A stretch of 64,000 nt of DNA. Source: Oscillospiraceae bacterium. Its GTDB lineage: Bacteria > Bacillota > Clostridia > Oscillospirales > Oscillospiraceae. A program made the translations under genes and the position numbers. Under the pieces are notes generated by a model, which saw only the letters and a program-made list of their open reading frames with translations, was not told the origin of the DNA and did no database searches. Where the stretch lies: NCBI GenBank assembly GCA_015068425.1, contig SVKK01000006.1, positions 1 to 64,000 of the forward strand, written 5' to 3'. Shown one piece after another: positions 30,354 to 36,827 of the stretch; position 1 is the stretch's first letter, and each line of letters starts with the position of its first letter.

Positions 30354-32315
30354 ATGCCCGAATTCAAGCTTAAAAGTGAATACTCTCCCTCCGGCGACCA
30401 GCCCGAGGCCATTGCCGCCCTTGCCGAGGGCATAAAAAGCGGTCTTAAAGAGCAGGTGCTTCTGGGCGTAACCGGCTCCGGCAAGACCTACACTATGGCA
30501 AAGGTCATAGAGGCGGTTCAGCGCCCCACCTTGGTGCTTGCCCACAACAAGACTCTCGCCGCCCAGCTTTGCAGCGAGTTTCGGGAGTTTTTCCCGGATA
30601 ACGCCGTGGAATACTTCGTCTCCTACTATGACTACTATCAGCCGGAGGCCTATATCCCCAGTACGGACACTTTCATAGAGAAGGACGCCAGCATAAACGA
30701 GGAGATTGACCGCCTCCGCCTTGCCGCCACCGCCTCGCTGCTGGAGCGGCGGGATGTTATAGTCGTGGCCTCCGTAAGCTGCATTTACGGCCTGGGCGAG
30801 CCCGACGATTTTGAAAAGATGATGGTGACCCTCCGCGTTGGGACAGAGCTTCCTATGGAGGAGCTTTTCCACCGGCTCATAGACATACGCTACGAGCGCA
30901 ACGACATTGCCTTTGAGCGCAATATGTTCCGCGTCCGGGGGGACACTGTGGAGCTTTGGCCCGCCTATTGGGCGGAAAGCGCCCTCCGGGTTGAATATTT
31001 CGGGGATGAGATTGAGCGCATCAGCGAGATAAACCCCGTCACGGGCAAGGCCATCCGCTATCTCCAGACTATCCCCGTCTGGCCCGCCAGCCACTATGTA
31101 ACCACCCACGAGAAGATGGAGCGGGCTGCCCGTGAGATTCGCAAAGAATGCGAGGAACGGGTGGAATACTTCAAAAGTCAGGGCAAGCTCATAGAGGCTC
31201 AGCGCATTGCCGAGCGCACCAACTATGACCTTGAGATGATGACGGAGCTGGGCTACTGCTCCGGCATCGAAAACTACAGCCGCATCATCTCCGGCCGTGC
31301 CCCCGGCTCTCCCCCCATGACCCTGCTGGACTATTTCCCCGATGACTTTATAATGTTCATCGATGAGAGCCACGTTACCCTTCCTCAGGTTCGCGCCATG
31401 TATAACGGCGACAGAGCCAGAAAGGAAGCTCTTATAAACTTCGGCTTCCGCCTCCCCTCCGCCTTTGATAACCGCCCGCTGAAATTCCCCGAATTTCAGC
31501 AGCGGCTCAATCAGGTGACCTATGTTTCCGCCACCCCCGGCGATTTTGAAAAGGAGCGCTCCGAGCGCATTGCCGAGCAGATCATCCGTCCCACCGGACT
31601 CACCGACCCGGAAATCTCCGTCCGTCCCACAGCAAACCAGATTGACGATCTTATCGAGGAAATTCATAAGCGCACTTCCCGCTCACAGCGCACACTGGTC
31701 ACCACTCTCACCAAGCGTATGGCCGAAGATCTCACCAGCTATCTCACCAACGCGGGCATACGCTGCCGCTATATGCACCACGATATCGACGCGATGCAGC
31801 GTATGGAGATAATCCGGGACCTGCGTCTGGGCGAATTTGATGTGCTTATCGGCATAAACCTCCTCCGCGAGGGTCTCGACCTGCCTGAGGTAAGCCTTGT
31901 TGCCATTCTGGACGCGGACAAGGAGGGCTTCCTCCGCAGCGAGACCAGCCTTATCCAGACTATCGGACGCGCCGCCAGAAATGCTGAAGGTCTTGTCATT
32001 ATGTATGCCGACACCGTCACGGGCAGTATGCGCCGCGCCATCGGCGAGACGGAGCGCCGCCGGAAAAAGCAGCAGGAGTATAACCGTATCAACGGCATCA
32101 TTCCAAAGACGGTCATCAAGGGTGTCCGCGAGCTTATGGATATCTCCGCCCCCACCTCTGTCAAGGGCAAAAGCGGCGTGAAGATGACGGAAAAAGAGCG
32201 CAAGGCTGAGATAGAGCGGCTTGAAAAGAAGATGAAGGAAGCGGCAAAGATGCTGGAGTTTGAAATTGCCGCCCAGCTTCGCGACCGCATAATCACTCTG
32301 AAGGGCGAAAAATGA
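30354..32315 (+). CDS. uvrB: UvrABC excinuclease subunit B
   Basis: A 653-aa DNA helicase-like subunit of nucleotide excision repair. Walker [11 protein letters not shown] (38-47), the beta-hairpin [12 protein letters not shown] that holds the damaged strand, FIDESHVT, and helicase motifs [10 protein letters not shown] and QTIGRAARN are present. A C-terminal UVR domain (about 615-650) binds UvrC. Normal length. uvrA and uvrC are not in the window. The start codon of the MATE gene overlaps its stop by 4 nt. Confidence 0.97.
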
Positions 32316-33673
32316 AAGAAATAAAAAACGACTTCACAAAAGGCGAAGTCTGGCGGGTTATAATGCGAATGGCGCTGCCGCTGATGCTGGCGCAGCTTGT
32401 GAATGTGCTCTATTCTGTTGTGGACAGAATGTATATAGGCCATATCCCCGGCGTAGGCTCCCTCGCTCTCACCGGCTTGGGCCTGACTATGCCCATTGTC
32501 AGCATCGTTACCGCCTTTGCCGGCCTTTGCGGCACGGGCGGCGGTCCCCTTTGCTCCATAGCAAGAGGCGAGGGCAAAAAGCAGCACGCGGAAGAGATAA
32601 TGGGCAACTGCTTCACATTGCTTCTCATCTTTGCTGTTTGTCTGACGCTGATATTGGAAATTTTCGCAAAACCCATTCTCTATGCCTTCGGGGCAAGCGA
32701 TGCCACCTTCCCCTACGCCGGTGAATATGTCCGCATCTATCTTTTGGGCACCGTGTTCGTTATGATAAGTCTGGGCATGAACCATTTCATAAATGCTCAA
32801 GGCTTTTCCTCCGTTGGCATGCTCACCGTGGCTATCGGCGCCGTTACCAACATCGTCCTTGACCCTATATTTATTTTTGTTTTCGATATGGGTATTTCCG
32901 GAGCCGCCCTCGCCACAGTTATCGCACAGGCGGTTTCCGCCGCCTGGGCGCTGGGTTTTCTTCTGGGCAAGAGAGCCATACTGGATTTCAAGCTGAAGAA
33001 TATGGGGCTGAAAGCCGCCCTTGTTGGGCGCATTCTGGCTCTCGGCACTACGGGTTTCGTTATGAGCATCACCAATGCCCTTGTCCAAACCGCCTGCAAC
33101 AGCCAGCTTCAGCGTTTCGGCGGGGATAACTATGTTGGCGCAATGACAATAATAAACTCCATCCGGGAGCTGACCTTTATGGCGGCTCACGGTCTCACCG
33201 CCGGGGCTCAGCCGGTGCTGGGCTATAACTTCGGTGCCGCCGCTTACTCCCGTGTGAAAAAGGGCATACGCTTTGTTTCCTCCGCCAGCTTCGTCTACGG
33301 TCTTTCCATCTGGCTTCTGGTTATGATTCTCCCCAGAACTCTGGCCTCCATCTTCAACTCCGACCCGGTTTTGCTGGCAGCAACAGAGCGCTCCATGCGC
33401 ATATATTTCTGCGGCTTCTTCCTTATGGCACTGCAGCTTGCCGGTCAGTGCGTTTTCGTGGGTCTCGGCAAGAGCAGGCAGGCCGTTTTCTTCTCATTGC
33501 TCCGCAAGGCGATTATTGTCACCCCTCTGGTTATCCTCCTGCCCTATATCCCTGCCCTGGGAGTTGAGGGTGTTTTCTGGGCGGAGCCAATAAGCGACCT
33601 TATCGGCGGCGCCGCCTGCTTTATAACCATGTATTTCACGGTGTATAAAAAGCTGCCTCAAGAAATTTCTTGA
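32312..33673 (+). CDS. MATE-family multidrug efflux transporter
   Basis: A 453-aa membrane protein with twelve predicted helices and the MATE features [22 protein letters not shown], then FINAQG, and the second-half repeat [10 protein letters not shown]. It probably exports cationic drugs with Na+ or H+. It overlaps uvrB by 4 nt (ATGA) and shares its promoter. No obvious terminator follows; transcription could run into the leader RNA next door. Confidence 0.93.
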
Positions 33674-33711
33674 CTTTTTTGATTTTTGGGTTTACATTTT
33701 ATCCAATGAAA

Positions 33712-33845
33712 TATTGATGCTTTCGAGTCGTTTCACCTAAGGGCTTTCGGGTCTATGGCGGACGACCGGAGTCATACCGGAAACAGTATGGCTTTCACGT
33801 TTTGAGAAGGAAGCGGTTTTCCCCCCGTGGGGAATAAATAAACCA
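33712..33845 (+). ncRNA. Candidate molybdenum-cofactor (Moco)-type riboswitch aptamer
   Basis: A structured leader before a FecCD-type ABC operon. From memory of the Moco/Tuco motif, matching blocks are a CACC segment, a GTCTATGGC block at about 33751-33759, a 10-bp hairpin GGAGTCATAC with GTATGGCTTT (33768-33777 with 33786-33795) capped by CGGAAACA, and a GAAGGAAG..CGG block at 33806-33815 followed by a pyrimidine run. The hairpin GCCGGGTGC... that follows is a perfect terminator, giving a plausible expression platform. B12 and other common riboswitch boxes were looked for and not seen. The class is inferred; a structured leader is well supported. Confidence 0.5.
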
Positions 33846-33850
33846 TCTAT

Positions 33851-33891
33851 GCCGGGTGCTTTCTCTCAAAAGAAAGCACCCGGCTTTTATT
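33851..33891 (+). terminator. Terminator between leader RNA and ABC importer (expression platform)
   Basis: A perfect 14-bp stem (GCCGGGTGCTTTCT at 33851-33864 with 33871-33884) followed by TTTTATTTG, located 18 nt upstream of the first importer gene, so it must be read through or prevented for expression. Confidence 0.9.
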
Positions 33892-33908
33892 TGTTGCAGG
33901 AGTCAGTT

Positions 33909-34931
33909 ATGAAAAAGGAAAAAAAGCGTTTATCATATTCTGCGGTTATCGCGCTGCTATGCGCCGCTCTTTTGGCGGCAATAATAGGCAGTGTTGTCCT
34001 CGGCCGCTATCCCATCGGCTTTAAGGAGCTCTGCGGCATTATTGGGAGCAAGCTTTTCCCCATTGAGAGCTTTTGGACTCCCACTCAGGAGGCTCTTTTG
34101 CTCAGCCACCGCCTCCCCAGAATTGCTCTCGCCTGCCTCGTAGGCTGCGCCCTCAGCGCCGCAGGTGCCAGCTATCAGGGCACCTTCCAAAATCCCATGG
34201 CCGCTCCCGACATTCTGGGCGCTTCCGCCGGTGCCTCCTTCGGCGCAGCTCTCGCCATAGTTCTGGGTCTGGGCAAGGCTATGATCACTCTTTTCGCCTT
34301 CGCCTCCGGACTTCTCTGCGTGGGTCTTGTAATCTTCGTGGGCGGAAGAGCCAAGGGCAAGCGGGTCATCGGGCTCATTCTGGCAGGCATTATGATAGGT
34401 TCCCTCTTCTCCTCCGGCACAAGCTTTATCAAACTTGTTGCCGACCCCGCTCAGCAGCTTCCCGCCATAACCTACTGGCTTATGGGCTCTCTCAACGGGG
34501 CAAGCGGAAGAGATGTCCTCTTCGCTCTCATTCCCATGCTCATCGGTCTTGTGCCCCTTTTCGTTCTGCGCTGGCGCATCAACATCCTCACTCTGGGTGA
34601 TGAGGAAGCCCGCACAATGGGCGTGAACGCCCCCCGACTGCGCATTCTGGTGATTCTCTGCGCTACGCTGGTCACCGCCGCCGCCGTATCCGTAAGCGGT
34701 GTTATCGGCTGGGTGGGTCTTGTTATCCCCCATCTTGCCCGCCGCCTCGTGGGCAATAACTACCGCCACCTGATGCCCGCAAGCATGCTCTTCGGCGCTT
34801 TGTTCCTTCTGCTTGTGGACGACATTGCCCGCAATGCCATGACAACGGAAATCCCTATAGGCATACTCACCAGCTTCATCGGTGCGCCTTTCTTCATTTA
34901 TCTTATAACAAGGGACGGTGAGAGAATATGA
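33909..34931 (+). CDS. FecCD-type ABC transporter permease
   Basis: A 340-aa BtuC/FecCD permease with about ten helices and family segments LPRIALACLVGCALSAAGASYQG, NPMAAPDILGASAGASFGA and IGWVGLVIPHLARRLVG. Members import iron-siderophore, haem, B12 or, in the MolBC branch, molybdate/tungstate. The start is the ATG at 33909 after CAGGAG. An in-frame extension upstream would run back into the terminator hairpin and is rejected. It heads a three-gene importer operon behind the riboswitch-like leader. Confidence 0.93.
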   Translation: MKKEKKRLSYSAVIALLCAALLAAIIGSVVLGRYPIGFKELCGIIGSKLFPIESFWTPTQEALLLSHRLPRIALACLVGCALSAAGASYQGTFQNPMAAPDILGASAGASFGAALAIVLGLGKAMITLFAFASGLLCVGLVIFVGGRAKGKRVIGLILAGIMIGSLFSSGTSFIKLVADPAQQLPAITYWLMGSLNGASGRDVLFALIPMLIGLVPLFVLRWRINILTLGDEEARTMGVNAPRLRILVILCATLVTAAAVSVSGVIGWVGLVIPHLARRLVGNNYRHLMPASMLFGALFLLLVDDIARNAMTTEIPIGILTSFIGAPFFIYLITRDGERI

Positions 34932-35701
34932 GTCTGGAAATCTGCGACCTGTGCTTTTCCTATGGCGAGCACGAGGTTTTGAAGGGACTCAGCTTTTCCG
35001 TTGAATACGGGGAGCTTCTCAGCGTTCTCGGTCCCAACGGCGTTGGAAAAAGCACCCTTTTCCGCTGCATACTGAGTCTTCTCAAGCCCCAAAAGGGAGA
35101 ATGTCTTATAGACGGAAAATCCACCGCTGGCTTCAGCGCCAAGGAGCTTGCTGGCTATATCGCCTATATCCCCCAGTCCCACTATCCCACCTTCAACTAT
35201 TCCGTTATGGATATGGTGCTTATGGGTACCACCGCTCAGGTGAACGCAATGTCCGTTCCCGGCAAGCGTCAGGTGGCTCTGGCAAGGGAAGCTCTTGAAA
35301 GGCTGGGCATTGCCCATCTCGCAAGCCGCGGCTATACCAATATCTCCGGCGGTGAAAGACAGCTGGTGCTTATTGCCCGTGCCATAGCCCAACAGGCAAA
35401 GATCCTCATCATGGATGAGCCCAGCGCAAATCTGGATTACGGCAACCGCACCCTCGTTATGCGCACCGTTAAAAATCTTGCCGCCGAGGGTTATGCTATA
35501 ATCCAATCCACCCACGACCCGGATCAGGCCTTCCTTTATTCGGACAAGGTGCTGGCCATTCAGGGCGGCAAGGTGCTTGCCTGGGGCAAGCCCGAGGACA
35601 CTATAAACAGCACCCTTATCAGCCGTCTCTACGGTGTGGATGTGGAAATTTGTTCCCTCAAGGACGACAAAGTGCGCGTTTGCGTACCTGCCGATTTATA
35701 A
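34928..35701 (+). CDS. FecE/BtuD-type ABC transporter ATPase
   Basis: A 257-aa single-domain ATPase. Walker A GPNGVGKST (about 37-45), Q-loop PQSHYPTFN, signature ISGGERQLVLIARA, Walker B ILIMDEPSANLD and H-loop STHDPDQA are all intact. The ATG overlaps the permease stop by 4 nt. It energises the importer with the flanking permease and lipoprotein. Confidence 0.95.
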   Translation: MSLEICDLCFSYGEHEVLKGLSFSVEYGELLSVLGPNGVGKSTLFRCILSLLKPQKGECLIDGKSTAGFSAKELAGYIAYIPQSHYPTFNYSVMDMVLMGTTAQVNAMSVPGKRQVALAREALERLGIAHLASRGYTNISGGERQLVLIARAIAQQAKILIMDEPSANLDYGNRTLVMRTVKNLAAEGYAIIQSTHDPDQAFLYSDKVLAIQGGKVLAWGKPEDTINSTLISRLYGVDVEICSLKDDKVRVCVPADL

Positions 35702-35721
35702 AACGGAAAAGGAGAATTGCT

Positions 35722-36786
35722 ATGAAAAAAACTGTGTGCATACTTTTGGTTCTGGCTATGGCTCTCAGCCTTTTCGCAGGCTGCGGCAGCTCCGCTCCTG
35801 CTCAGGAGAGCGCCAAGACCGTGGAATTCATCGATGACTGCGGGCGCAGCGTGGCCGTTCCCGAAGATATAAGCCGCATTGTTCCCACCGGACCTCTCTC
35901 CCAGATCGTGCTTTTCGCCCTCTGCCCGGAGATGTTCGTGGGTCTTGCCAGCAAGTGGGGCAGCGACAGCGAAGGTATTATCCCCGAGGAGTTTCTCGCC
36001 CTGCCCTATTTCGGTCAGCTTTACGGCTCTGCCGATCTGAATGTTGAATCCCTCGCCCTTGCCGCTCCCCAGATCATAATCGACATCGGAGAAGTGAAAA
36101 AGAGCACCGCCGAGGATATCGAGGCTCTTCAGACTCAGCTGGGTATCCCCTGTGTATTCATCGAATCCACCCTTGAATCTCTCCCCGAAACCTATCGCAA
36201 GCTTGGAGCTCTTCTTGGTCTTGAGGAAAGAGCCGAGACCCTCGCCTCCTTCTGTGAGGAGACCTATGACCGCACCCTCTCCATTATGGAGCAGGTGGGC
36301 GACAACAGAGCTCAGGTTGTATATATCCCCGGCTACGAGGAGCTGAGCGTTCTTGCCAAGGGCAGCTATCACGCCGAGATAATAGACCTTATCTGCGATA
36401 ATGCCGCGGTTGTGGAGGAGCCCACAAGCCGGGGCACCGGAAACCCCGTAAGTATGGAGCAGCTGGCACTTTGGGACAGCGAGTATGTGATCTTCGGAAC
36501 TGCAGAAAGCTACGCCGGTCTGGAAACCGATCCCGCCTGGGCGGAGATGCGCGCCGCCAAGGAAGGAAAGTGCCTCCTTGTCCCCTGCCGTCCCCAGAAC
36601 TGGCTGGGAAGCCCTCCGGGAGCTCAGCGTATTCTCGGTCTCATCTGGCTCACCGGCGTGCTCTATCCCGACTACTGCGATTATGACATAGAGGAGGAGG
36701 TCAAGGAGTTTTACTCCCTTTTCTTCCACTGCACTCTCAGCGACGAGCAGTTTGATGCCATCACCGAAAACGCATTTCTGAAATAA
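35722..36786 (+). CDS. FecB/TroA-like ABC transporter substrate-binding lipoprotein
   Basis: 354 aa; signal peptide with lipobox LFAGC and Cys21, then a two-lobed binding domain (FIDDCGRSVAVPEDISRIVPTGP in parts, about 35-60, and the C-terminal NWLGSPPGAQRILGLIWLTGVLYPD region). The fold serves iron complexes, B12, haem and molybdate/tungstate. The leader RNA argues for the last, but the ligand residues cannot be assigned by eye. The start is the ATG at 35722 after GGAG; the upstream in-frame Met has no RBS. Confidence 0.9.
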   Translation: MKKTVCILLVLAMALSLFAGCGSSAPAQESAKTVEFIDDCGRSVAVPEDISRIVPTGPLSQIVLFALCPEMFVGLASKWGSDSEGIIPEEFLALPYFGQLYGSADLNVESLALAAPQIIIDIGEVKKSTAEDIEALQTQLGIPCVFIESTLESLPETYRKLGALLGLEERAETLASFCEETYDRTLSIMEQVGDNRAQVVYIPGYEELSVLAKGSYHAEIIDLICDNAAVVEEPTSRGTGNPVSMEQLALWDSEYVIFGTAESYAGLETDPAWAEMRAAKEGKCLLVPCRPQNWLGSPPGAQRILGLIWLTGVLYPDYCDYDIEEEVKEFYSLFFHCTLSDEQFDAITENAFLK

Positions 36787-36791
36787 ACAGC

Positions 36792-36827
36792 AAAACTCCC
36801 TGCGCCTTACCGCGCAGGGAGTTTTTT
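36792..36827 (+). terminator. Terminator of the FecCD-type importer operon
   Basis: A perfect 14-bp stem (AAAACTCCCTGCGC with its complement) with T6. Confidence 0.93.

Follow-up and report, generated by a model that had tools for sequence, protein, structure and literature searches.

Within the window, i.e., the whole 64,000-nucleotide stretch of DNA that was analyzed, a leader occupies the interval between a MATE gene (32312-33673) and the genes of a FecCD-type ABC importer (33909-36786). The locus comprises the following features:

33670..33698, plus strand: sigma-70-like promoter (TTGACT-17-TACATT) that overlaps the MATE gene at its end; a consensus match only (9 of 12 positions)
33709..33828, plus strand: Moco/Tuco riboswitch aptamer of the P3-less type; RF01055 at 44.4 bits, model 1-135, P3 positions deleted
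33719..33724, plus strand: P1 5' strand GCUUUC, partner 33809-33814; RF01055 alignment
33736..33741, plus strand: CCUAAG half of the P2 tetraloop receptor, second half UAUGG at 33754-33758; sequence and RF01055 alignment
about 33768..33796, plus strand: P4 hairpin, GAAA tetraloop at 33780-33783; RF01055 alignment and P4 covariation in relatives
33800..33814, plus strand: UUUUGAGAAGGAAGC, the 3' strand of the aptamer, which contains the P1 3' strand (33809-33814) and is common to P1 and the antiterminator; growing-transcript folds and duplex energy versus shuffles
33851..33884, plus strand: intrinsic terminator of 14 pairs with a loop of 6 and the U-rich tail TTTTATTTGT; terminator scan
33858..33871, plus strand: antiterminator partner GCUUUCUCUCAAAA within the terminator 5' arm and loop; growing-transcript folds and duplex energy versus shuffles
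33909..34931, plus strand: FecCD-type permease, MolB-like, ATG at 33909 and CAGGAG at 33897-33902; PF01032 at 297.6 bits, best PDB match MolB 2nq2_A, tree
34928..35701, plus strand: ABC ATPase, MolC-like; PF00005, best PDB match 2nq2_C (HI1470)
35722..36786, plus strand: lipoprotein-like substrate-binding protein, probably MolA-related; PF01497, profile and fold matches to 4pag, 4ovk and MolA
36792..36825, no strand assigned: 14-bp hairpin directly after the last gene, the probable operon end; symmetric stem from the minus-strand scan

The leader RNA belongs with near certainty to the Moco/Tuco riboswitch class. RF01055 matches over its full model length and above the gathering score of 36, with an E-value of 2.6e-7 for both strands of the 64-kb window, and chance is therefore excluded as source of the match. 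In a permissive Rfam scan of 33600-34000 (E up to 10), no second riboswitch class, cobalamin included, was found and other matches were far under the gathering scores of their families, ruling out cobalamin or another riboswitch class for this leader. The preliminary description had noted a resemblance to the molybdenum-cofactor RNA from the order of conserved-looking blocks and a hairpin, all of which are present: CACC at 33734-33737, TATGGC at 33754-33759, GAAGGAAGCGG at 33806-33816 and the P4 hairpin with its GAAA loop. The class is thus confirmed, and it can now be specified as the P3-less type, as P1, the receptor-bearing P2 (CCUAAG/UAUGG), P4 carrying the GAAA tetraloop and the UUUGAGAAGGA core are all aligned, whereas the P3 stem is missing. 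In the text of Regulski et al. (2008, PMC2408646), such P3-less RNAs account for 58 of 176 Moco RNAs and correlate with tungsten-cofactor genes. Covariation is strong in 24 P3-less leaders, where 18 of 24 pairs show changes on both sides and pairing cells reach 89.8% versus 66.8% in shuffles (0 of 500 shuffles as high).

Judged from its sequence, an RNA starting from the promoter-like site at 33670-33698 would begin at the aptamer. The terminator downstream has the 14-pair stem previously described, yet not the distance of 18 nt to the first gene, which was measured from 33891; the stem itself lies 24 nt upstream of the ATG. In the rest of the plus strand between 33400 and 37300, the terminator scan gave no terminator-like site of more than 6 pairs. 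When the growing transcript is folded, a helix of 33800-33814 with 33858-33871 is seen at lengths of 160-170, and the terminator from 175 on. The duplex energy of this antiterminator amounts to -20.1 kcal/mol versus -11.6 +/- 2.4 kcal/mol with shuffled partners (0 of 300 shuffles as strong). As its first strand contains the P1 3' strand, the expression platform is linked to P1, and P1 and antiterminator are therefore mutually exclusive. This re-use of the P1 3' strand, in combination with the 14-bp terminator, points to an OFF switch acting through transcription termination as the likely mode of control, with a direction of switching that we infer. A terminator is present in 17 of the 18 importer-linked leaders examined. 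Among these 17, an antiterminator in the same region, differing in sequence, exceeds 95% of shuffles in strength in ten, and is not significant by the shuffle test in seven (G283:C22, L128, L135, L121, L179, G365, and G431).

The importer consists, by Pfam content, of a FecCD permease, an ABC ATPase and a Peripla_BP_2 protein. Against PDB sequences, the permease scores highest with MolB (216 bits), followed by FhuB (193), HmuU (170), BhuU (146), and BtuC (125), and the best PDB match of the ATPase is Haemophilus MolC. All NCBIfam models for siderophore, heme and B12 systems remain far under cut-off on the importer (e.g., BtuC with 229.9 versus 461). In a maximum-likelihood tree of 40 permeases, with PDB reference sequences taken from printed alignments and two very long-branched rows left out, a branch with 100/99 support unites MolB with the window permease, 15 further permeases linked to the riboswitch and their relatives, the opposite side being occupied by FhuB, HmuU, BhuU, and BtuC together with five more FecCD permeases of sampled genomes; before removal of the long-branched rows, support for the placement of MolB was weaker. 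The permease tree and the profile scores argue against a siderophore, heme or B12 importer. For the binding protein, the profile order is 4pag, 4ovk, 4hn9, and 2etv, structural-genomics chains that are uncharacterized or annotated as putative iron binders; MolA (74.6 bits) comes next, before IsdE, FeuA, FhuD, and BtuF. MolA thus ranks first among matches with an established molybdate function, though not first overall. Fold search with an AlphaFold model (pLDDT 85.7) likewise places the same chains first, MolA eighth and siderophore proteins lower, the 18% identity to MolA in the fold match reflecting a distant relation. By these sequence relationships, the importer is MolBC-like and would likely take up molybdate or tungstate. 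The earlier proposal of this cargo in place of iron or B12 is accordingly supported by the grouping of the permease with MolB and by MolA scoring above the named siderophore and B12 proteins. As to nesting among siderophore systems, separation is clear for the permease, whereas for the binding protein putative iron-binder chains outscore MolA.

RF01055 was found in 54 of 391 genomes of the class Clostridia, the many-genome searches having been run with stricter filters under which weak matches are lost. The class search and an order-level search together gave 122 places, each followed by no less than 1.2 kb of readable sequence, which precede Tup (33), cofactor synthesis (18), Mol-like FecCD importers (12), Mod (8), and WOR (8) genes, and in 43 cases none of the reference proteins used. 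The 12 Mol-like FecCD sites are spread over 10 genomes and 8 families; in one genome (G166), two other genes stand first. Among relatives of the binding protein, the orthologous operon is preceded by RF01055 immediately in L121, L128, L135, L136, and L179 and, with a small ORF apparently in between, in L124 and L125; the RF01055 search gave no match in the close relatives L119, L120, L123, and L126. Inspection shows L136 to be without P3, the other six bearing it. Compared with the window, L121 proteins share 78% (permease), 65% (ATPase) and 55% (binding protein) identity. A pairing of RNA and importer confined to the genome of the window is rejected, as it occurs in 10 of the sampled genomes, from 8 families, and in 7 further named contigs. 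The preliminary description had set it apart from the usual ModABC pairing, to which the correction applies that in Clostridia it recurs, at 12 of 122 sites.

Several related operons extend into further genes. In G422, the order is riboswitch, permease, ATPase, binding protein, NTPase_1 and MobA-like; XdhC comes next after the importer in one of the two operons of G515, YqeC follows the operon in L136 and NTPase_1 that in L121. ORF reading in G008 places related importers beside moaA-mog-moeA (L063) and nif genes (L064, L065). NTPase_1 (PF03266) is repeatedly encoded 3' of the binding-protein gene (L059, L119, L121, L123, and L187). After riboswitch-led importers, a DUF364/DUF4213 'putative heavy-metal chelation' protein is encoded at L240:3395-4174, with similar ORFs in G228 and G283, a placement hinting at molybdenum or tungsten as possible targets of this family. 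Another conserved protein (CIDDTDNL...GTGEL) is found 3' of importer genes at L188:15200-15943, with similar ORFs in G166, G283, and G305; it has no Pfam match, weakly matches the N-terminal part of TiaS and is possibly molybdenum- or tungsten-related. Moreover, a small secreted protein is encoded by the first gene between Moco RNA and FecCD genes at L238:5007-5600 (minus strand), G283:C28 and G431:C75, and carries a Big_5 Ig-like domain in G305.

Very probably, a P3-less Moco/Tuco riboswitch governs the molBCA-like operon by transcription termination, the operon encoding an importer for molybdate and/or tungstate. Plentiful molybdenum or tungsten cofactor, the presumed ligand, would bind the aptamer and stabilize P1 (33719-33724 with 33809-33814). 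With its 3' strand occupied, P1 would prevent formation of the antiterminator with 33858-33871, so that the terminator at 33851-33884 would form and the importer genes would stay untranscribed. When the cofactor is scarce, the P1 3' strand would instead pair as antiterminator, the type II (FecCD) ABC importer would be made and could then take up molybdate and/or tungstate as its putative cargo. Counting against this reading are the merely distant likeness of the binding protein to MolA, the four close relatives in which no RNA was found, and an aptamer score below that of most relatives.

Alternatively, the RNA might act as described and the importer carry an iron-siderophore, heme or cobalamin, the cofactor signal mirroring indirect demand only. 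Pfam and NCBIfam as well as several of the best solved relatives, annotated as iron-complex binders, speak for such a cargo, as does the finding of only this FecCD permease in the 84%-complete genome, so that another FecCD cargo would otherwise be without such an importer. This explanation is nevertheless unlikely, considering the position of the permease on the MolB side of the well-supported branch, the low scores of the siderophore, heme and B12 models, the genes of mobA, xdhC and yqeC type in related operons led by the riboswitch and a leader devoid of a cobalamin riboswitch. Since MolBC-A, the nearest importer of known function, transports free molybdate (PMC4031551) and no metallophore genes were seen adjoining the window operon, even less probability is given to a chelated or organic cargo (a pterin, or a metallophore complex of molybdenum or tungsten) in place of the free oxyanion, although large chelates are the usual load of FecCD importers and the DUF364/DUF4213 protein occurs in some riboswitch-led operons.

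Least probable of all, and very improbable in itself, is a decayed aptamer that has lost switching. The window aptamer indeed scores below most relatives (44.4 versus typically 60-90 bits) and shows a C-A mismatch adjoining the P4 loop as well as non-standard outer P1 pairs. However, the match is full-length, core, GAAA tetraloop and both receptor halves (CCUAAG/UAUGG) are preserved, a P3-less model gives 78.3 bits (the window aptamer being one of its 24 training sequences), and the specific antiterminator is retained at a strength that no shuffle attains.

The genome of the window, 84% complete, encodes one WOR, MoaA, two MoeA-like proteins, TupABC, several PF00384 proteins and one MoCoBD_2 enzyme, and neither a ModA match nor a second FecCD permease was found in it. 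Molybdopterin and WOR enzymes in a genome without a ModA match speak for an importer of molybdate and/or tungstate. As the genome holds WOR and Tup beside several other molybdopterin enzymes, its content could not assign the metal. Among the tested genomes, both that have an importer leader without P3 (G000 and G525) encode WOR, as do two of seven whose leader bears P3; the set is far too small to decide, with a trend in the direction expected for Tuco. Tentatively, and with the odds against it, the P3-less RNA might be specific for the tungsten cofactor and the operon a dedicated FecCD-type tungsten importer, its P3-bearing orthologues being the molybdenum counterpart. If true, a tungstate route would exist beside Tup, Mod, and Wtp, and presence or absence of P3 would track metal choice inside one importer family. 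The orthologous operons with and without P3 represent matched pairs bearing on the role proposed for P3 in 2008 as the feature distinguishing Moco from Tuco sensing.

With the P3-less subgroup of Moco/Tuco riboswitches (RF01055, PMC2408646), the window RNA shares aptamer architecture, tetraloop and receptor, the intrinsic-terminator expression platform and the placement before a molybdenum/tungsten-related operon. It differs in its target, a FecCD/MolBC-type importer, as the article text of PMC2408646 names Mod and general molybdate/tungstate transporters and not this type. The location of Moco/Tuco riboswitches before molybdate or tungstate transporters is frequent and already known (PMC9971707), and RF01055-led TupABC and ModABC operons follow the same logic of a cofactor-sensing RNA before an oxyanion importer, but with another transporter type, whose permease and binding protein come from unrelated families. 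MolBC-A of Haemophilus influenzae (HI1470-1472; PDB 2nq2, 3psa), in turn, shares the permease branch, is the top PDB match of both permease and ATPase and has a probably related binding protein, but differs in gene order and in the only distant likeness of that protein. There, molybdate represses molB via an unknown factor, and control of MolBC-A has been called "poorly understood" (PMC4031551); no report of a riboswitch at molABC of this species was found in the literature searched. Likewise, a link of Moco/Tuco riboswitch and FecCD/MolBC-type importer was not found in that literature, in which PMC2408646 is covered by its article text. Hence, RNA class and importer branch are each known, and their pairing appears to be new and useful for annotation. 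A group of importers for which annotation suggests iron or B12 transport could be re-assigned to molybdate/tungstate uptake, and genomes seemingly deficient in ModABC, that of the window included, may import the metal via the Mol-like FecCD route. At least in Clostridia, the pairing also offers a candidate link from cellular molybdenum to repression of MolBC-type operons, the question raised in PMC4031551.

The Tup system of the genome of the window shows a peculiarity of its own. Its tungstate-binding TupA (L082:7777-8835, contig C43) is circularly permuted, with the C-terminal segment of ordinary TupA coming first, followed by the LSTTTSVNDSGLL segment, and tupB- and tupC-like genes lie 3' of it. 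Further permuted loci are L085:11692-12876, L087:1095-2282, and L234:1988-2974 (minus strand), the assignment being based on out-of-order matches in four genomes and two stretches matching NF041772. A report on TupA with circular permutation was not found in the literature search. Among the RF01055 places, L018:7377-14502 of genome G098 bears three consecutive RNAs, two of which precede large secreted dockerin type I proteins near an S-layer-domain protein, an unexpected target of a cofactor riboswitch.
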